In this document: piece by piece, positions 18,889 through 53,540 of the stretch
Position numbering within the stretch: position 1 is the first letter of the stretch
Layout of the letters: each line of letters begins with the position of its first letter
Notes under the pieces: model-generated
The model's database searches: none
What the model saw: only the letters and a program-made list of their open reading frames with translations
What the model was told of the DNA's origin: nothing
Position numbers and translations under genes: made by a program
Assembly: GCF_007990755.1 (NCBI RefSeq)
Contig: NZ_BJXA01000004.1
Span: forward strand, 62,001-126,000
Length of the DNA stretch: 64,000 bases
Origin: Nocardia ninae NBRC 108245
Lineage (GTDB): Bacteria > Actinomycetota > Actinomycetes > Mycobacteriales > Mycobacteriaceae
Direction: 5' to 3'

Positions 18889-20757
18889 ATGCTCCTGACG
18901 ATCACCTGCACACCACCGGAGGACGCCGACTGGCCGGCGACCGACCTGGGGTTCTTGCTGCACAAGAACCCCGACCGGGTGCAGGCGTTCGAACAGTCCT
19001 ACGGCACAGCGCATGTCGTGTACCCCGAGGCGACCGCCGCCCGGTGCACGGTGGCACTGGTGCTGGAGATCGATCCGATCCGGCTGGTGCGCGGACGTTC
19101 GCGCGGGACACCGGATTTCAGTCTCGGCCAGTACGTCAACGATCGGCCGTACGCGGCGTCGTCGCTGCTGTCGGTCGCGATCGGGGCGGTGTTCCGCACC
19201 GCGCTGCACGGGCGCTGCACGCTGCGCCCGGAACTGGTGCAGACCGCGCTGCCGTTGCGCATCGAGCTGCCGACCGTACCGTGCCGAGGCGGCGCGGAGG
19301 TGGCGGAGCGGGTGTTCGCGCCGCTCGGCTGGGCGGTGACCGCCACTGCCCTGCCGTTGGATCCGGCGTTCCCGGAGTGGGGTGATTCGCACTACCTGCG
19401 GCTGCAGTTGTCCGGGACCGTGCGGTTGGCGGACGCGCTCTCACACCTGTACGTCTTGCTGCCTGTGCTGGATGGGGCGAAGCACTACTGGCTGGCCGCG
19501 GATGAGGTCGACAAGCTGATCCGGGCGGGTGGCGGATGGCTGGCCGAGCATCCGGAGCGTGGATGGATCACGCGACGTTATCTGGCGCGGCGGCAGTCGC
19601 TCGTACGGACGGCGTTGGCTCGGCTCGCCGAGTTGGACGAGGTGGAGCCGGAGTTGTTGGACGCGGTGGAGGAAGTGGACGACGCGGAGGAAGTCGGTTC
19701 CAGCGACCTTGCGGCGGGCGAGTCCGAACCCGGCTCCGCGCCAGCCCAAATGGCTGACGGCGATGGTGTTTCGGCCCAGGCACGGCCACCTTCGACCGAG
19801 ATCGACGCTGCGGGAATGGCCGTAGCCGACGCGAGCAAGCAAGTCGATATGTCAGCGTCCGATCTGCCCGGTGGTGGCGAAATCGTCACAGGAGACGGGG
19901 CGGACCTCGCCTCAACAGTGGCCGGTGCGCACGACACGACCGTGGCTGATCCGATCGACGTGGCCGTGGCCGGTGCAGCCGCCACCGACGAGGCCGGTGT
20001 GCCAGACATCGCAGCCCCTGTTGTGCCTGACATGGCAGCGACAGGCGGGTCAGACCTGGCAGCGCCTCGTGCGTCCGAACTGGCTGAAACTCCCCCGGGC
20101 ACAGTGTCGTTGGCAGTCACACGACGCGCTGCGGTGCGTGCCGCGCTGCACGAGGTCGGTGCTCGTCGAGTGCTCGACCTCGGTTGTGGCGAGGGCACGC
20201 TGCTGCGAGAGCTGTTGGCGGACAGAACATTCACCGAGATCGTCGGGGTGGACGTATCGATGCGGGCGCTGCATATCGCTGAACGCAAGTTGCGGCTCGA
20301 GCGCCTGCCAGAACCTGTGGCGCAGCGGCTGACCCTGCGGCAGGGCGCGCTCACCTACACCGACGCCCGGTTGCGCGGTTACGACGCCGCGGTGCTGATG
20401 GAGGTCATCGAGCACGTGGACCCGCCGCGTCTCGGTGCGCTGGAGCATGCGGTCTTCGCGGCGGCAGCGCCGAGGGCGGTGCTCGTCACGACGCCGAACG
20501 CGGAGGTCAATGTGCGCTTCGAGGGCTTGGCGGCCGGCGCTTTCCGGCATGCCGATCACCGGTTCGAGTGGACCCGTGCCGAATTCGCGGCGTGGGCCGA
20601 CGGTGTGGCGGCCCGGCACGGGTATTCCGTGCGATTCGTGCCGATCGGCGTGGTGGACGCGGAGTTCGGCGCGCCCACCCAAATGGCAGTATTCAGCAAG
20701 ATCGAATTCGACAACGCCACGGTAACCGTGGCTGCGGCCCGGGAAGGGGTGGCGTGA
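18889..20757 (+). CDS. hen1: 3'-terminal RNA ribose 2'-O-methyltransferase Hen1
   Basis: 622 residues. The N-terminal half (about 1-245) is the bacterial Hen1 domain that works with Pnkp; the C-terminal half (about 405-600) is the methyltransferase, with S-adenosylmethionine motif D-L-G-C-G-E-G and metal ligands E505, E508, H509 and H554 in E-V-I-E-H and F-R-H-A-D-H. It methylates the 2'-OH at the 3' end of cleaved RNA so that the sealed junction resists a second ribotoxin cut. Between the domains lies an acidic, Ala/Asp/Val-rich, low-complexity linker (about 250-400). Compared with roughly 465 residues for well-studied bacterial Hen1, this linker explains the extra length. The stop overlaps the pnkp start. 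Confidence 0.95.
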   Translation: MLLTITCTPPEDADWPATDLGFLLHKNPDRVQAFEQSYGTAHVVYPEATAARCTVALVLEIDPIRLVRGRSRGTPDFSLGQYVNDRPYAASSLLSVAIGAVFRTALHGRCTLRPELVQTALPLRIELPTVPCRGGAEVAERVFAPLGWAVTATALPLDPAFPEWGDSHYLRLQLSGTVRLADALSHLYVLLPVLDGAKHYWLAADEVDKLIRAGGGWLAEHPERGWITRRYLARRQSLVRTALARLAELDEVEPELLDAVEEVDDAEEVGSSDLAAGESEPGSAPAQMADGDGVSAQARPPSTEIDAAGMAVADASKQVDMSASDLPGGGEIVTGDGADLASTVAGAHDTTVADPIDVAVAGAAATDEAGVPDIAAPVVPDMAATGGSDLAAPRASELAETPPGTVSLAVTRRAAVRAALHEVGARRVLDLGCGEGTLLRELLADRTFTEIVGVDVSMRALHIAERKLRLERLPEPVAQRLTLRQGALTYTDARLRGYDAAVLMEVIEHVDPPRLGALEHAVFAAAAPRAVLVTTPNAEVNVRFEGLAAGAFRHADHRFEWTRAEFAAWADGVAARHGYSVRFVPIGVVDAEFGAPTQMAVFSKIEFDNATVTVAAAREGVA

Positions 20758-46809: not shown

Positions 46810-47274
46810 TCAGCGGCCGATCGCGGCGGCCATCACGCGAACCGCGGAAACCAGGCCGTCGATCAGCTGGCCCTGCCGGAACGAGCTCGATGCGGCGGTG
46901 ACGCCGAGTTGGCAGACCCGGTCGTTCGCGCGGTCGGCGACGTCGCGGCCGGAGCGGACCTCGATCGCCTTGTCGTTGGGCGAGACCGCGATGAGCACCG
47001 AACGGGTCGCCTCGGGGGTCGAGGGGAAGATCGCGTCCGCACCCGCGGCCGGATCGGCGCCGAGATCGCCGATGTAGACGTTGAAGCGCACCTTGGTCGC
47101 GCGGGTCGCCTCGGTGAGCACGTTGTCCATGGCCAGCCGCTCTTCGTCGCTGAACGGGGCCTCCTTGAACACGTCACCCGCCTCGTGCACGCCGGAGACG
47201 CGTCCGCTGGTGGTGACCACATACCCGTGCGGCAGGTCGGACTCGACCACCGCGGGCCACTTAGAACTTGCCAC
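46810..47274 (-). CDS. DUF5130/TPM-like protein (Rv2468c type)
   Basis: 154 residues, a soluble protein with the TPM-like fold of DUF5130: F-S-D-E-E-R-L-A-M-D-N-V-L near residue 42, V-R-F-N-V-Y-I-G near 62, the V-L-I-A-V-S-P-N-D-K-A-I-E-V-R-S-G strand block near 92, and an acid-rich C-terminal helix. The function is unknown. The GTG start at 47274 overlaps the 3' end of ctaJ by 14 bases, so it is coupled to that oxidase subunit. In mycobacteria its homologue lies next to pepN. Confidence 0.85.
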   Translation of the reverse strand: MASSKWPAVVESDLPHGYVVTTSGRVSGVHEAGDVFKEAPFSDEERLAMDNVLTEATRATKVRFNVYIGDLGADPAAGADAIFPSTPEATRSVLIAVSPNDKAIEVRSGRDVADRANDRVCQLGVTAASSSFRQGQLIDGLVSAVRVMAAAIGR

Positions 47275-47566
47275 TTGCCCGGCCTCCGATCAGCTCCGCC
47301 TTGGGGGCTTCGAGCGCCGCATGATGGCCATGCGACGACTCCGCGTGATGGCCGTGCGACTCCTCGGCCCTTTCGTGGTGAAATGCGTTCGTCACCTCGT
47401 CGGTCGCGCTCCACAGCACCGGCGCCGCCGTCCACTGCTGACCGAGGTCGTAGTGGGCAGGCTTCTCGCCGGGCAGTGGCTTACCGAGATACGACAATCC
47501 GGCAATCGCGCCGTAGACCACCAGCGGGATGCCGAGGAAGATCAGCACTGTCTCGAGAATGCTCAC
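47261..47566 (-). CDS. ctaJ: aa3-type cytochrome oxidase subunit CtaJ
   Basis: 101 residues. The N-terminal S-I-L-E-T-V-L-I-F-L-G-I-P-L-V-V-Y-G forms one membrane helix, followed by P-A-H-Y-D-L-G-Q-Q-W and P-V-L-W-S-A, the pattern of CtaJ found in the M. smegmatis respiratory III2IV2 supercomplex. The tail is His-rich (E-S-H-G-H-H-A-E-S-S-H-G-H-H). GTG at 47566 is chosen because it opens the helix. It overlaps DUF5130 by 14 bases; the core oxidase genes lie elsewhere. Confidence 0.82.
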   Translation of the reverse strand: MSILETVLIFLGIPLVVYGAIAGLSYLGKPLPGEKPAHYDLGQQWTAAPVLWSATDEVTNAFHHERAEESHGHHAESSHGHHAALEAPKAELIGGRASGKF

Positions 47567-47655
47567 GGTCCAACGGTAGACGATGCTCTGTAGTAGTTCC
47601 TCTTCTGGTCGCACTGTGACTGTTTCGTGTCGGGTCGCGGCGACGACCCCGCCGG

Positions 47656-48087
47656 TCATGGGCGGGGAGGCCGAAACCGGACGCTGACTTGGATCTCTTC
47701 CGGCCCGCACCGCCGCCACAGGGCCCGGGCGGTCCGCCACCCGGTGCGGAGGGCGAACACGAGCGCGCAGCAGGCCAGTGTCCGATGCTCGACATCGTCA
47801 GGCCATCCGCTGCCGACCAGCTCGGCGAACGTCGCGGTCGTCATCACGCCGGCCACCGCAACCGGGATATCGAGCCGCAGCGTGCGACGGATCAGCCCGG
47901 CAGTCGCGGGGCGGGCACCGATCGGGCCTGCCGATACCGGGAACGACACAGGCAGCACAGGGCCGGACGGCACATCCGTCCGGACACTGTCGGCGGTGTC
48001 GTCCCGCGCGCTCGAGGTGACCGACCGGTCTCCGGTATCACCTGTGCGCGTGGCGTCCCCCGCGGGATCGCGGTGAGAATTCAGCAT
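47656..48087 (-). CDS. Hypothetical protein, possible membrane association
   Basis: 143 residues, not recognised. A disordered Asp/Arg/Thr-rich N terminus (1-45) precedes two moderately hydrophobic stretches (V-A-V-A-G-V-M-T-T-A-T-F-A, about 75-92, and L-A-C-C-A-L-V-F-A-L, about 103-112) and an Arg-rich end. ATG at 48087 has AGGAAG upstream. It precedes ctaJ by 90 bases on the same strand. A frame on the opposite strand also exists but looks less natural. Could be a real small gene or chance. Confidence 0.4.
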   Translation of the reverse strand: MLNSHRDPAGDATRTGDTGDRSVTSSARDDTADSVRTDVPSGPVLPVSFPVSAGPIGARPATAGLIRRTLRLDIPVAVAGVMTTATFAELVGSGWPDDVEHRTLACCALVFALRTGWRTARALWRRCGPEEIQVSVRFRPPRP

Positions 48088-48932
48088 CTGCGTTTCGTCT
48101 TCCTAGGTGAGGAATCCGTGTTCGAGCACTGAATCAGCACGACGGAACACGAACTCAGGAATATTCAGGGAATGCGACCGACGCACGATTACGTGCAGTT
48201 CTTCTCTGGTATCCGCAGCGGGCCCGATTCGAGAGCCCGCCACCCTTCGCCAGCGAGAGGACGAATACGAGCATAGCCAAGACCGGCCGAGTTTCAACAT
48301 TCCTTTTGCACCCTTGCAGCAGAAGCGACTCGGCCCATGGCGAAATCGGTCCGGTAGAGCGCAACTCTCGGCAGCTTCCAAAAAGCAGACACACCGATAG
48401 ACGCGTTTGGAATTGGAATTCCAAATACGAATCGGCACCGTTCCAACCAAGCTCCGCCAGCCCTCGGAGGTCGTTCCAAACGGAGGGATTTGGACTCTGA
48501 TGCATCGCTCTTACCTGTGCTTTTGGAAATTTGCACCAGAGGGAAGGCCGCACAAGGATGACGAACGACCGTCGAGGTTGCGTCGGCAACCAGTCCACCA
48601 TGCACCGGGTTACGCGAGCACAGCAATCTGACTCCGGCCCTCCCGACTCGCGCACAGAGAATGCGCCCGAGAAGCAGTGTGAACCAGTGGACCGTCCCTG
48701 AACGCGATGGTCGGACCGCCGGGCAACGAGGCGTTATAGGCGCCACTACGAGAAAACTGCGCAGTACTCGACAACGGAAGTCTCGACAAACTGCATGCAG
48801 CAAAGTGTTTGAGCCGCCGATATACCTACCGCTCGAGATTGCAAATGCAAATACACCAGTGCAGATTGTACGGAAAAGCAGACGTTCGAGAATTTCGCGG
48901 CGCCGTAGTGGCGGCCAGCGAAAGCCCTGGTC
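48088..48932. other. AT-richer gap left of the XRE/NlpC-like gene
   Basis: About 845 bases with no gene I can support; composition is visibly richer in A and T than neighbours. It contains a perfect 20-bp palindrome (48406-48425, arms TTTGGAATT and AATTCCAAA around GG) and further TTCCAA/TTGGAA copies near 48376, 48440, 48474 and 48521, plus ATTTGGACT (48488-48496) and ATGCATCGC (48500-48508). The cluster suggests protein-binding sites or remnant mobile DNA. Confidence 0.55.
48406..48425. repeat. Perfect 20-bp palindrome in a TTGGAA/TTCCAA cluster
   Basis: Arms TTTGGAATT and AATTCCAAA flank a GG centre. Half-site copies lie within 130 bases on either side. The same TTGGA core recurs in the promoter region of the neighbouring XRE/NlpC-like gene. 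Confidence 0.7.
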
Positions 48933-51002
48933 CTACGCGACCCCCGGCCGATTCCGGGCAGACCACCGACCCGCGGCGGCCGTGGCCAACCGCGCCATCA
49001 TCAACTCCGCGGCCGTCGCGGAGTCCGCGGGAGACACCGCTTGAATGTTGCGGAGCCGAGCGTCACGTGGATACACCGGTTCCCGCACCGGATCCCATGC
49101 GGTCGTCACCGAGGTGAACTCGACTCCGCCTCGAATCTTGGCCGCCGTGAACAACTCTCGTCCGCTCAACGGCACGGCGACCCCGCGCTGCTTCGCGCGC
49201 TCGACCACCTCGATCACCATGGCGACGACCTCGGCCGTTTCCGGAACCCGGCGATGACGGCCGCTACGTCGCTCACCGGCCCGGTAGATCCGCGCGAGGC
49301 GTCCGGTGCCGTCATGATCGACCACCGCCACCGAGCTCACCAGCCCATAGCCGGTCCGCGCAGGCACGGCGGTCACCCGCCACGCCGCCACATACAACGC
49401 GGGCTGCAGCACGCTGGTGGCCTTGGTGCCCGCCGGCCCCAGATATACGAGTTCACCTCGGCCACCGTAGATTCCGAGCACGCCGGATTCGGTGAACACG
49501 ATATCGCCGGGGCGCAGGTCGACGTGGCGGACGGCGACCGCCATCACCGGCAACTCGAAGCGGATATCGGGTGGCAGCGGCAGGTCGATGGCCTTGAAGG
49601 CCTCGCGGACGAGCCATGCCTGCGATCCCGCGTACGGGAAGACCAGGCGGTCGATCGCCCGCAGCGCGGCCGGTCCCGGTTCGGCGGCCCGCGCCGCGGC
49701 CTCGACCCGTTCGGTCACCGCACCCATGACCGCCTCGTACTCCGATATGACGCGCTCGGTCGACGAGTCGGCCGGGCGCGACGGCATCGTTACCTGCTGC
49801 GCGGGTGCACCGTCTCGCGGGCCCGGCGGAATGTCGGTCGACGACGGCGGAACCGCATCGAAAACTGTTGGTGTGGGAGGACTCTGCGCAGGGCGGTCCG
49901 CCAGCAGTACAGACTCCCACGTGATGCGGCGTGTCGTCCGAACCTGATCCCGGGGGATCAGCCAGCCGTATGATCCGCCCACCGACGAGGCGAACAACAA
50001 CGCGAGTCCATTGCCCGCATAAAGACATTCACGGCCATCGGCCAGGATGAGGATGTCGCCCGGCTCGGCGTTCTCGAACGGCACGTGCACGCCGGCCTCG
50101 GCCTGTTCGCCCGCGCGGGTCCGCAAGGTGATCCCCGCGGCACCATAAGCCTTGCGGATGAGCGACGCCGCGGTGAGATTCTCGAGGGAGCGCGGGTCAG
50201 CGAGTTCTTCGCGAACGAACCGCAATGCCATTCGACCTGGCGAGACCCGCACCCCCGAATCCCGCAGCACGCTGCCGACCCACCAACGGTGGCCCTGCGT
50301 TGCCGACTCTGCGCCTACTGCCCGCACCGCGGGATCGCGCGGCTGCCACGGTTCGTACGCGTGCGGCTCGTACTGTGTGGCCGGCAGGGGCGTGATGAAC
50401 CGCGTGCCGACGGAGCCGTAGACATCAGCCGGCGAGAAGGTTCTTCTCGGCGAAAACCGTTGGGTAAGCCCACGCCACCACTCCGACCAGCCACCCGGCT
50501 GAGCAGACAACGGGGTGCCGGGACCGGCGTTCACGGTGTTCGGCAAAACGGTTTCCCGCTGCCCGGCAACCGGCCCGGAGCCGCTCACGTACCGTCCGGG
50601 AGAGTGCACACCGTCGGCCTGGGGCCGGGGCGACTCTTCTGTTCCGCGGAGCCCTGCCTTGCCCGCCTCCGGGAACCTGCGCCTGATCTCCGCGCAGCGG
50701 GCCACCGCGAACTCGATCTGCTCCGGTGGGAGTTCGCAGCTCTCCAAATACTTTTGGAGCAGCGCGGGCTTCGGGAAGCTCGTGTAGGTGGGGTTTCCGG
50801 CGTAGTTGTACACCGTCTGCCGTCCGGGCTTACCGGCGCAGCGTTTCGCGACAGCAGCCCTGGACAACCCCGATGAACGCTGCGCCTCGGTGGTCATCTC
50901 CAGGAACTCCGTGCGCAGTCGGTCGTAAGAGGCGCCGTCGAGATCGAGCGTGAGTTTCAGCTCGGTGCCTGCCTTCTCGGCCGCGGACACCTCGGCCCTC
51001 AC
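48933..51002 (-). CDS. XRE-type HTH protein with two degenerate NlpC/P60-like domains
   Basis: 689 residues. Residues about 30-110 look like the XRE helix-turn-helix found at the N terminus of actinomycete multidomain proteins (S-R-A-A-V-A-K-R-C, then T-V-Y-N-Y). A Pro/Ser linker follows, then two repeats resembling NlpC/P60 cysteine peptidases: about 270-365 (P-G-D-I-L-I-L at 314-320, Y-A-G-N-G at 328-332) and about 445-548 (P-G-D-I-V-F at 498-503, G-I-Y-G-G-R-G at 510-516). In both, the D-C-S-G-L catalytic Cys is replaced (T-A-A-S-L-I; G-S-Q-A-W-L) and the H-V-G-I-Y His is missing (E-C-L-Y; V-L-G-I-Y). They are probably non-catalytic binding modules. Start is GTG 51002 or GTG 50990. Confidence 0.72.
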   Translation of the reverse strand: MRAEVSAAEKAGTELKLTLDLDGASYDRLRTEFLEMTTEAQRSSGLSRAAVAKRCAGKPGRQTVYNYAGNPTYTSFPKPALLQKYLESCELPPEQIEFAVARCAEIRRRFPEAGKAGLRGTEESPRPQADGVHSPGRYVSGSGPVAGQRETVLPNTVNAGPGTPLSAQPGGWSEWWRGLTQRFSPRRTFSPADVYGSVGTRFITPLPATQYEPHAYEPWQPRDPAVRAVGAESATQGHRWWVGSVLRDSGVRVSPGRMALRFVREELADPRSLENLTAASLIRKAYGAAGITLRTRAGEQAEAGVHVPFENAEPGDILILADGRECLYAGNGLALLFASSVGGSYGWLIPRDQVRTTRRITWESVLLADRPAQSPPTPTVFDAVPPSSTDIPPGPRDGAPAQQVTMPSRPADSSTERVISEYEAVMGAVTERVEAAARAAEPGPAALRAIDRLVFPYAGSQAWLVREAFKAIDLPLPPDIRFELPVMAVAVRHVDLRPGDIVFTESGVLGIYGGRGELVYLGPAGTKATSVLQPALYVAAWRVTAVPARTGYGLVSSVAVVDHDGTGRLARIYRAGERRSGRHRRVPETAEVVAMVIEVVERAKQRGVAVPLSGRELFTAAKIRGGVEFTSVTTAWDPVREPVYPRDARLRNIQAVSPADSATAAELMMARLATAAAGRWSARNRPGVA

Positions 51003-51804
51003 CGCGGTGAACGGCAGTCAGCACCACCCGGAACCCGACGTAGTGCGCCATCGAGCCACGCGCCACAGCCAGCTCTCCGACGCCGCACGCACCTCGGCAC
51101 TCCGGCGGACACGACAAAACCGGTCACGTCAACTCCTCAACCTGTGTAACGAAGGAGTCCGCGGGCCGCGATGCTGCGCGCCGACCACTGCGATCGGCGC
51201 TCGTGGTCCGGATCCACTATGAGGTGGGTACCAGCCGTTGAGCCTCGCGTGCCTCGCGAACCCCAAAGCATCGTGGGTGCAGCCGAATTCGGGACCATCG
51301 CGGCACTGCGCGCTACAGGCTGGTTAAGCCGAGCGCGGCCCCCCACTGCACTGGGGGCACCGACCAGTCTCCCATTCCGCGACCGCTCACGGCCAGTCCC
51401 CGCGAGCAAAAATCACAAATGTGTAACTTCGCTGAGAGCGAACCGCGTTCGGGTCGACGACAACCCCGTCGACCAGCGATTTGGACTAAAACGCAAGCCC
51501 CCTGAACGCCGATTTGGACCGCACGAACTAGTCCAATTGGAAAAATGCATCGCGCACATAGGCAAATTTCGGCGTGACGGGTGCGGCTTTCCGGCGGCAT
51601 AGACGCGGCCGACTGGCTCGCAACGATCAATCGCTACGGGCGCAGCCCTCCCCACGCTGGGGTGTAGCCGCACACAGCAACACCCCAGCACAACTACGTG
51701 TACCTGTCCGAGTGGACGCCGCGGTCCCTATGCCTTCAGCATCGTTCTGCCGCAGCGGCTTCCGCAGTCTGCCCACCGAAAAGTTCCGCGGACAACCGCG
51801 CCCG
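51003..51804. other. AT-richer gap with candidate operators upstream of the XRE/NlpC-like gene
   Basis: About 800 bases without a supported gene. CGATTTGGAC occurs twice as a direct repeat, 51477-51486 and 51510-51519, 33 bp apart (about three helical turns); the palindrome TCCAATTGGA is at 51532-51541 and ATGCATCGC at 51545-51553. The left flank of the same gene carries the same 9-mers. Confidence 0.55.
51477..51519. repeat. Two CGATTTGGAC direct repeats
   Basis: Perfect 10-bp copies 33 bp apart, about 480 bases upstream of the XRE/NlpC-like gene start. The spacing places both on one face of the helix, as for dimer- or tetramer-binding regulators. Confidence 0.6.
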
Positions 51805-53406
51805 CTAGACCAACCACGCGGCCGTGTTCGGCGGCAGCTGACCACCGTCGAGCGCGGCGCTGGCCAGCAGCACGTCACCGGGTGGCAGCTGGGTGGGTAT
51901 GTTCGACGCGTTCAGCACACAGACCAGGCCACCTTCGCGGCGGAAGGCGAGGCACCCGGGCGGGCTGCCGTACCACTCGATCCGGTCACCGCTGAATTCC
52001 GGTCGCAGGCCGCGTAATTCGATGGCCATCCGGTAGAGCGAGAGAGTGGAGCCGAGTTCCTCGAGCTGCGCTTCCACGGTGCGTCCCGCCCAGTCGGCCG
52101 GCATCGGCAGCCACGGTGTGCCGGTGGTGAATCCGAACGGGGGTGTGGTGCCCTCCCACGGGATCGGCACCCGGCAGCCGTCGCGGCCGCGTTCGGTGTG
52201 CCCCGACCGTTCCCACGCCGGGTCTTGCAGTACCTCGTCGGGTAGGTCGTCCACGTTCGGCAAACCGAGTTCGGCGCCGTTGTAGATGAAGACCGTGCCG
52301 GGCAGCGCGAGCTCGACCAGCAGCATTGCGCGGGCCCGCGCCTCACCCACCGCACCGCCGCCGTAGCGGGTCACTTCCCGGGCGATGTCGTGGTTGGACA
52401 GCGTCCAGGTGGGTGCGGCCGCGACCGGCGCGACCGCGGCGAGCGAATTGTCGATCGCCGCACGGACGTGGTCGGCGTCGAAGTCGGTCTTGGCCAGCCG
52501 GAAATTGAAGGCCAGGTGTAGCTCGTCGGGGCGCAGGTACTCGCCGAATCGAGTGTTGTCGTTCACCCAGACCTCGCCGATCGACACCGCGTCCGGATAG
52601 TCGTCGAGCACCTTGCGGATGCGGCGGTGGATCTCGTGCACGGCGGGGTTGTTGAAGCGCGGATCATCGTCGTCGTTGGACAGCATGCTGGACTTGGCCA
52701 CCGCCATATCGGGCAGCCCGGCCGGTTTCGCCATACCGTGCGCCACGTCGAGGCGGAAGCCGTCGACGCCGCGGTCGAGCCAGAACCGCAGGGTCTTCTC
52801 GAAATCGGCGGCAACCTCCGGGTTTTCCCAGTTCAGGTCGGGCTGTTCGGGCGCGAAGATGTGCAGGTACCACTGGCCCGGCGTGCCGTCGGGCTCGGTA
52901 ATCCTGGTCCAGGCGGGGCCGCCGAAGATGCTCGGCCAGTTGTTCGGTGGGGCGTCGCCGCCGGGGCCACGTCCGTCCCGGAAGAGGTAGCGGGCCCGTT
53001 CCGGGCTGTCTGGTCCGGCTTCCAGCGCCGCGAGGAACCAGGGATGTTCGTTGCTGGTGTGGTTGGGCACCAGGTCCATCGTGATCTTGATGTGGCGCAG
53101 GTGCGCCTCGGCGATCAGCTCGTCCATGGCGGCGAGGCCACCGAACAGGGGGTCGATATCGCGCGGATCGGCCACGTCGTAGCCGCCGTCGGCCATCGGC
53201 GACGTCATCACCGGACACACCCAGAGTGCGTCGATGCCGAGCAGTTCGAGGTAGCCGAGTTTCTCCCGGACGCCACCGAGGTCACCGACCCCGTCGCCAT
53301 CGAAGTCCGCGAATGATCGGGGATAAACCTGGTAGAAAACGGCCGACCGCCACCATGGTTGCTTGGCGCGATCCACCGGCACCAGCACGGCGGGTGTATC
53401 AGTCAC
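51805..53406 (-). CDS. aglA: Alpha-glucosidase, GH13 family
   Basis: 533 residues of the oligo-1,6-/alpha-glucosidase GH13 group. Conserved regions are D-L-V-P-N-H near residue 110, G-F-R-L-D-V-A-H-G near 217 with the nucleophile Asp, S-I-G-E-V-W near 278 with the acid/base Glu, and L-S-N-H-D near 335. It hydrolyses terminal alpha-glucosidic bonds, likely of maltose or trehalose-derived oligosaccharides. GTG 53406 is preferred over TTG 53436; there is no strong ribosome site, so translation may be leaderless. Corresponds to M. tuberculosis aglA beside glbO. Confidence 0.93.
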   Translation of the reverse strand: MTDTPAVLVPVDRAKQPWWRSAVFYQVYPRSFADFDGDGVGDLGGVREKLGYLELLGIDALWVCPVMTSPMADGGYDVADPRDIDPLFGGLAAMDELIAEAHLRHIKITMDLVPNHTSNEHPWFLAALEAGPDSPERARYLFRDGRGPGGDAPPNNWPSIFGGPAWTRITEPDGTPGQWYLHIFAPEQPDLNWENPEVAADFEKTLRFWLDRGVDGFRLDVAHGMAKPAGLPDMAVAKSSMLSNDDDDPRFNNPAVHEIHRRIRKVLDDYPDAVSIGEVWVNDNTRFGEYLRPDELHLAFNFRLAKTDFDADHVRAAIDNSLAAVAPVAAAPTWTLSNHDIAREVTRYGGGAVGEARARAMLLVELALPGTVFIYNGAELGLPNVDDLPDEVLQDPAWERSGHTERGRDGCRVPIPWEGTTPPFGFTTGTPWLPMPADWAGRTVEAQLEELGSTLSLYRMAIELRGLRPEFSGDRIEWYGSPPGCLAFRREGGLVCVLNASNIPTQLPPGDVLLASAALDGGQLPPNTAAWLV

Positions 53407-53540
53407 ACCTGCAATAGTGCCAAAGTTTTGCGGCAAAAACCCTTAGGCGGAGCAGTGATCTCAACTTCCGGCAAATCGCCAGCGTCCGCCGCGACGCGCC
53501 GAAAACCCTCGGCCCGTCTCGGCTCTGGCGCCAAACGCCC

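Follow-up and report, generated by a model that had tools for sequence, protein, structure and literature searches.

An insertion beside aglA in Nocardia ninae NBRC 108245 carries a gene for a 689-residue protein that combines a predicted XRE-type helix-turn-helix (HTH) with two NlpC/P60-like domains lacking the catalytic Cys and His. The gene lies in the 64,000-nucleotide stretch analysed here, which we call the window (contig NZ_BJXA01000004.1, positions 62,001 to 126,000; G000:C4:62001-126000, G000 being the window's own genome and WIN its sequence). Travelling with it are a conserved non-coding block, predicted to form a structured RNA, a small gene, ORF143, and in part of the genomes a kinase gene. 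Our best explanation, which we propose tentatively and rate somewhat below an even chance, is that these parts form a small mobile regulatory module of Nocardia. The features are listed in Table 1.

Table 1. Features of the aglA insertion (positions in the window)
Feature	Position	Strand	Basis or remark
XRE - pseudo-NlpC/P60 x2 protein	48933..51002	-	689 residues, stop included in span
Predicted XRE-type HTH region, residues ~14-110	50673..50963	-	HipB profile match, HTH_31 in relative, model helices
Pseudo-NlpC/P60 domain 1, residues ~251-366	49905..50252	-	Pfam, NCBIfam, PDB profile, alignment, fold
Pseudo-NlpC/P60 domain 2, residues ~440-548	49359..49685	-	profile, alignment, fold
Conserved C-terminal tail, residues ~560-689	48936..49325	-	alignment A1; no domain recognised
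Conserved non-coding block, predicted structured RNA, ~320 nt	51111..51436	-	conservation above coding sequence
Predicted RNA core, long stem and two arms (three-way junction), model R1	51150..51267	-	folding, model search
Near-invariant element GTTACACATTTGTGAT, 5' edge of block	51412..51427	-	candidate operator or MtrA-type repeat
ORF143, small protein travelling with module	47656..48087	-	stop included; co-occurrence
Promoter-like TTGAAA-16-TATGCT upstream of ORF143	48270..48297	-	1 found in region, 0.5 expected by shuffling
Insertion	47656..51807		between aglA (51805-53436) and ORF159/DUF5130 pair

The 689-residue protein and its family

The open reading frame (ORF) is real and conserved as a gene. 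Two relatives, 92% (G127) and 63% (G067) identical, extend across residues 2-689, and five others (G031, G143, G029, G041 and G030) show 65-70% identity in the C-terminal part and 45-63% in the N-terminal and middle pieces. Compared with G067, G041 and G143, the third codon positions vary most and the frame is intact. Including the window's own genome, full-length relatives are present in eight of 150 genomes of the genus; matches were listed in 145 of the 150, those beyond the relatives named here being short or falling in the NlpC core of other genes, and uncounted. Named species with relatives are N. suismassiliense (91%), N. brasiliensis, N. vulneris and N. colli. The open frames range from 640 to 1172 residues in length, owing to low-complexity linkers, and a shorter relative in G028 (a 384-residue open frame) has only the HTH and the second NlpC-like domain. 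A search of 298 genomes of the order at E<=1e-9, a limit that hides weaker matches of the few Nocardia included, gave no member beyond the own genome. With the domain-2 profile, five of 396 genomes of the phylum gave matches, two of them Nocardia and three others with E 2e-7 to 3e-5 covering part of the NlpC core only; the order and phylum searches score few candidates per genome, so that absence there is unproven. No relatives were obtained by tblastn against plasmids and phages, nor with the domain-2 profile in viral contigs. In the open-access literature searched, which is no proof of absence in print, no XRE-pseudo-NlpC protein is described.

An earlier note on this DNA, made by reading the sequence, had proposed two NlpC/P60-like repeats without catalytic residues, and this proposal is borne out. 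Domain 1 scores 22.6 bits against Pfam NLPC_P60 (E=1.1e-4; cut-off 23), among NCBIfam models the inactive RipD fits it best (E=7.4e-5), and its profile finds RipB in the PDB at 1.7e-5. Domain 2 has no Pfam match of its own; its profile matches Nocardia NlpC/P60 genes with E down to 2.5e-13, and it matches the NlpC/P60 fold in the full-length model only. In domain 1, Ala stands at the Cys position and Glu at the His position (in the HMMER alignment the His position is deleted), whereas domain 2 has Gly and Val there and a shortened loop preceding the Cys position. The catalytic Cys and His are kept in none of the six domain-1 and none of the five domain-2 sequences. By alignable sequence and modelled fold, both domains belong to the NlpC/P60 superfamily; with the catalytic residues missing, they would not be hydrolases.

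Nocardia NlpC/P60 proteins with an intact site (for example those at L022 and L110) can be aligned with the domain including the PGD motif, and domain 1 also shares with them an RPDQVVTARR-like end. However, the intact proteins keep DCSG and GHVG, and the island protein keeps neither. RipD (Rv1566c) of mycobacteria is likewise a non-catalytic NlpC/P60 protein. It is exported, short, carries pentapeptide repeats and binds peptidoglycan, whereas the island protein has two domains, an HTH, no hydropathy membrane segment (zero at the cut-off used) and a linkage to an RNA and a kinase. The N-terminal HTH and the lack of a hydrophobic segment speak against export of the 689-residue protein. According to the review PMC12067865, RipD is a non-catalytic peptidoglycan binder and so sets a precedent for binding by an NlpC/P60 domain that has lost its activity. 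The review also mentions that ripE of M. tuberculosis has a gene for an XRE regulator as its neighbour, which encodes a separate protein and is a loose parallel only.

The HTH, also proposed in the earlier note, has no Pfam match in the window protein alone. The family profile A5 finds HipB (E=8e-4), HTH_31 reaches 1.3e-5 in one family member, the best value, and the low-confidence AlphaFold model has helices over the region. The HTH core is alignable with HipB, and on the family profile we assign an XRE-type HTH; the island protein differs from XRE/HipB-type regulators by two extra residues before the recognition helix and by its long C-terminal pseudo-enzyme part. The N-terminal HTH of Nocardia XRE-membrane and XRE-membrane-kinase proteins is alignable as well, but the window protein has no membrane region and carries a pseudo-hydrolase where the kinase would be. 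At the DNA level, the HTH region shares 71-81% of its positions with G067, G041 and G143, and in none of these comparisons is either of the other two coding regions examined more conserved.

Two distant relatives were found in G119 and G010. In the first (L040:8716-10668, minus strand), the N-terminus is HTH-like, two stretches resemble NlpC/P60 and the C-terminal domain is biotinyl/lipoyl-like; at what we take to be the lipoyl-lysine position the alignment has Asn, which would make this a second pseudo-enzyme module. The other (L041:8302-10668, minus strand) combines in a single chain an N-terminus resembling an HTH, membrane segments and an NlpC-like region that has neither Cys nor His, a layout that fits a cytoplasmic pseudo-NlpC domain.

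Insertion, companion genes and upstream block

At 35 of 42 Nocardia aglA loci the site is empty: the 303-451 bp from the end of the aglA match to the start of DUF5130 hold ORF159 but no ORF143. The 42 loci comprise a first set of 13 and a second of 29, and because the 30 genomes for the second set were chosen, 35 of 42 is no frequency; the count leaves out L057-L067 (ten loci of other genera and one second copy in G052). Six of the remaining seven loci are from module-bearing genomes and the seventh, that of G067, has a different insert. The module lies in one piece beside aglA in G000, G127, G041, G143, G029 and G031. In G030 it is split across short contigs, and a place beside aglA is therefore likely but not seen. 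G067 has the module at a second place, with the order kinase, RNA, pseudo-NlpC, ORF143 kept. In the aglA-ORF159 gap of that genome (L142:3130-4345), alpha/beta-hydrolase-like and MerR-like frames were seen by eye. A different insert in the same gap suggests an insertion hotspot.

The earlier note described the island as interrupting a block otherwise ordered as in mycobacteria; for Nocardia, the 35 empty sites confirm that a conserved block is interrupted. The extent of the island has to be corrected, since it reaches further and includes ORF143. The flanks of the 689-residue gene, one of 805 bp with 64.3% GC and the other of 845 bp with 56.8% GC, are AT-richer than the neighbours (about 68% GC), as had been stated, mainly on the downstream side. 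Their description as free of genes is half right: the upstream flank carries a conserved element with a predicted structure. The earlier note had missed this predicted RNA as well as ORF143 and the kinase gene.

ORF143 is present in the same eight of 148 genomes as the module and was not found at the 35 empty aglA sites. One additional weak match, in G078 (E 1.6e-4, 38% over residues 19-100), was discounted as a chance hit: that genome has no RNA match, and its only match to the 689-residue protein is in the NlpC core. The promoter-like site before ORF143 occurs in all seven loci aligned (G030 left out), as TATGAT in G067. Five of the eight genomes (G067, G029, G143, G031 and G030) have an adjacent upstream gene for an XRE-membrane-Ser/Thr kinase. 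Pkinase was found in all four kinases scanned (E 1e-29 or better); the one in G030 is cut by a contig end and was identified by motifs. By pattern match, VAVK and DFG are present in five of five kinases and HxDxKPxN in four, and hydropathy predicts, at the cut-off used, four to five membrane segments in each of the five. Across 148 genomes of the genus, a search for the membrane and pre-kinase region of the kinase gave only these five, all of which have the module. In the own genome, the XRE-membrane region of the G067 kinase, used as query, matched only a 477-residue XRE-membrane frame without kinase. This frame, at G000:C64:42303-42680 (L125), has no effector and resembles N-terminal matches in other Nocardia.

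The conserved block ends about 110 nt before the start codon of the 689-residue gene and its predicted fold is on the gene strand. Its identity to G067, G041 and G143 is 85.5, 81.1 and 80.8% (98% to G127), in each comparison higher than that of the three coding regions (63-81% overall, 45-71% at third positions); the stretch between block and start codon is less conserved (61-73%). We rejected a protein-coding reading of the block, whose frames are interrupted by indels (1, 2 and 8 bases) and whose opposite-strand ORFs in the relatives differ in frame (by eye).

RNAalifold gives a closed structure for the block. For its 77 pairs, 96.9% of the cells pair, compared with 36-45% for slid partners, 595 of 614 cells pair on the sense and 509 on the antisense strand, 39 of 153 paired versus 45 of 95 unpaired columns are variable, and one gap column is paired and 23 are unpaired. 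Cells changed on both sides number ten (shuffle mean 3.9; none of 500 shuffles is as high). All these counts are flattered by a structure derived from the same alignment. In the core, 98.6% of cells pair and three pairs are double-changed, which 30 of 500 shuffles reach. Folded singly, seven of seven cores (the near-identical G127 left out) form the main stem and two arms with small differences; z lies between -4.0 and -5.6 in six of them and is -1.8 in G067. A larger piece of 261-266 nt is less striking (z -1.9 in the window, -3.7 in G143, -1.3 for the opposite strand). A search of 148 genomes with the core model, whose filters can lose weak matches, found exactly the eight module genomes, with one copy each. 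Rfam at gathering score reports two tRNAs only in the window; below it, the models of miRNA, archaeal sRNA and 5.8S rRNA account for four matches, which were taken as chance and the best of which (E 0.022) lies outside the block, and a further permissive Rfam search gave no match. There is a fair chance that the block represents a new RNA class.

The element GTTACACATTTGTGAT is exact in seven of eight module loci and has one mismatch in G067. It is compatible with an imperfect palindrome and with the MtrA direct repeat as worded in PMC6265350. GTTAC-N6-GTGAT fits that wording of the motif, which is degenerate, with 3.8 occurrences expected by chance and 2 found in 64 kb.

Proposed circuit and alternatives

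In the circuit that we favour, the pseudo-NlpC domains would be cytoplasmic, as the lack of a hydropathy membrane segment suggests, and would bind cell-wall peptide, as RipD binds peptidoglycan, or a protein partner. Ligand binding would alter DNA binding by the HTH, whose first target would be its own promoter via the candidate site GTTACACATTTGTGAT, and the RNA leader would set translation or readthrough. Where a kinase is present, it would pass a signal from the envelope on to this circuit, acting on the pseudo-hydrolase through contact between their related N-terminal domains or by phosphorylation; it would have been lost in the window's lineage. A non-catalytic sensor that regulates transcription, one of two possibilities raised in the earlier note, is the best single reading, with ligand and DNA binding as its conjectural steps. 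If true, a cytoplasmic pseudo-NlpC pair on an XRE HTH would be a route from wall turnover directly to transcription in actinobacteria, and the co-occurring RNA would offer a compact handle, with eight natural versions at a fixed place before the gene. It is possible, albeit doubtful, that all this amounts to an undescribed mobile protein-RNA signalling module, made of a new structured RNA class, a cytoplasmic XRE-fused tandem pseudo-NlpC/P60 sensor, a small protein and a dispensable XRE-membrane-Ser/Thr kinase, in which a dead wall hydrolase reads wall fragments inside the cell and acts on its own gene through the RNA. None of the ingredients is new by itself, but neither their combination nor the RNA turned up in the searches made here.

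Several results weigh against the regulatory module. The full-length AlphaFold model is poor (mean predicted local distance difference test score, pLDDT, 37.4), and residues 410-689 modelled alone (mean pLDDT 38.6) have no significant Foldseek match (best 7v6t, E 0.12). The HipB match is weak, the HTH has its two extra residues also in comparison with the kinase-type HTH, Pfam gives nothing for the G010 protein, and three of eight genomes (G000, G127 and G041) have no kinase. The RNA evidence comes from eight related sequences: four pairs are changed on both sides, which 56 of 500 shuffles reach, three of these four double changes are common to WIN, G127 and G067 and thus represent few events, and pair-type diversity gives no signal, being matched or exceeded in 421 and 437 of 500 shuffles.

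The scarcity of double compensations and the silent pair types also suit a block conserved as DNA, that is, a multi-site promoter or operator region, as do the palindrome- or direct-repeat-like nature of its most invariant stretch and the only moderately better than shuffled folding of the 266-nt window piece. We consider this somewhat unlikely, given the stem and two arms in all singly folded cores, the excess of pairing over slid partners, the lower variation and fewer gaps of paired columns and the better pairing of the sense strand. Rather improbable, too, is that the pseudo-NlpC pair serves only to hold proteins together or to be phosphorylated by the kinase, with the HTH a non-DNA-binding dimerisation remnant. 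The shortened loop of domain 2, which may alter the substrate groove, the variable length with its low-complexity linkers and the HTH insertion would fit such a role; the good conservation of the HTH region and the dispensable kinase argue against it.

The other possibility of the earlier note, a defence or conflict module, finds little support and is unlikely. Here the XRE N-terminus would serve as an adaptor that kinases and NTPases also carry, and the pseudo-NlpC part, on sensing damage that is invader-derived or done to the wall, would set off the kinase or some other effector. The patchy mobile distribution within Nocardia only and the alignable HTH-like N-termini of kinase and pseudo-NlpC would agree with this, and the G010 relative is near an AbiTii gene and an XRE-like AAA-TPR protein. 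Kaur et al. (PMC7159879) report kinases in actinobacterial conflict systems, most of them with disrupted catalytic residues. However, the module kinases keep their active-site motifs and are missing in three of eight genomes, the genes around the aglA-site islands are those of the conserved block, the only defence-like neighbours seen lie beside the distant relative in G010, and phage, plasmid and viral-contig homologues were not found. PADLOC, in a scan that covered the 689-residue protein only, gave no family at E<=5. Very improbable and already disfavoured is a decaying remnant, in which the window lost the kinase and the rest is drifting. The three genomes without kinase would be in line with it, but the frame is intact, its changes are biased to third positions relative to G067, G041 and G143, and the RNA block agrees at 98% with G127 and at 81-86% with these three genomes.

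Further observations at the locus

The stretch between the pseudo-NlpC gene and ORF143 measures 2.0-2.5 kb in three kinase-bearing aglA-site loci (L034:12704-15126, L035:12227-14757 and L038:11449-13429) and 0.8-0.85 kb in the window, G127, G041 and G067. The longer stretches contain direct and inverted matches between species. Elsewhere in the window, ARAGORN predicts a tRNA-Ala (cgc) at 19284-19376 on the plus strand, which the Rfam tRNA model does not report at gathering score and which is probably spurious. ORF159 as listed (47264-47740, minus strand) overlaps ORF143. In 10 of the 12 empty-site loci compared for this, the ORF159 match begins at residue 32 at least, and its true start is probably downstream.

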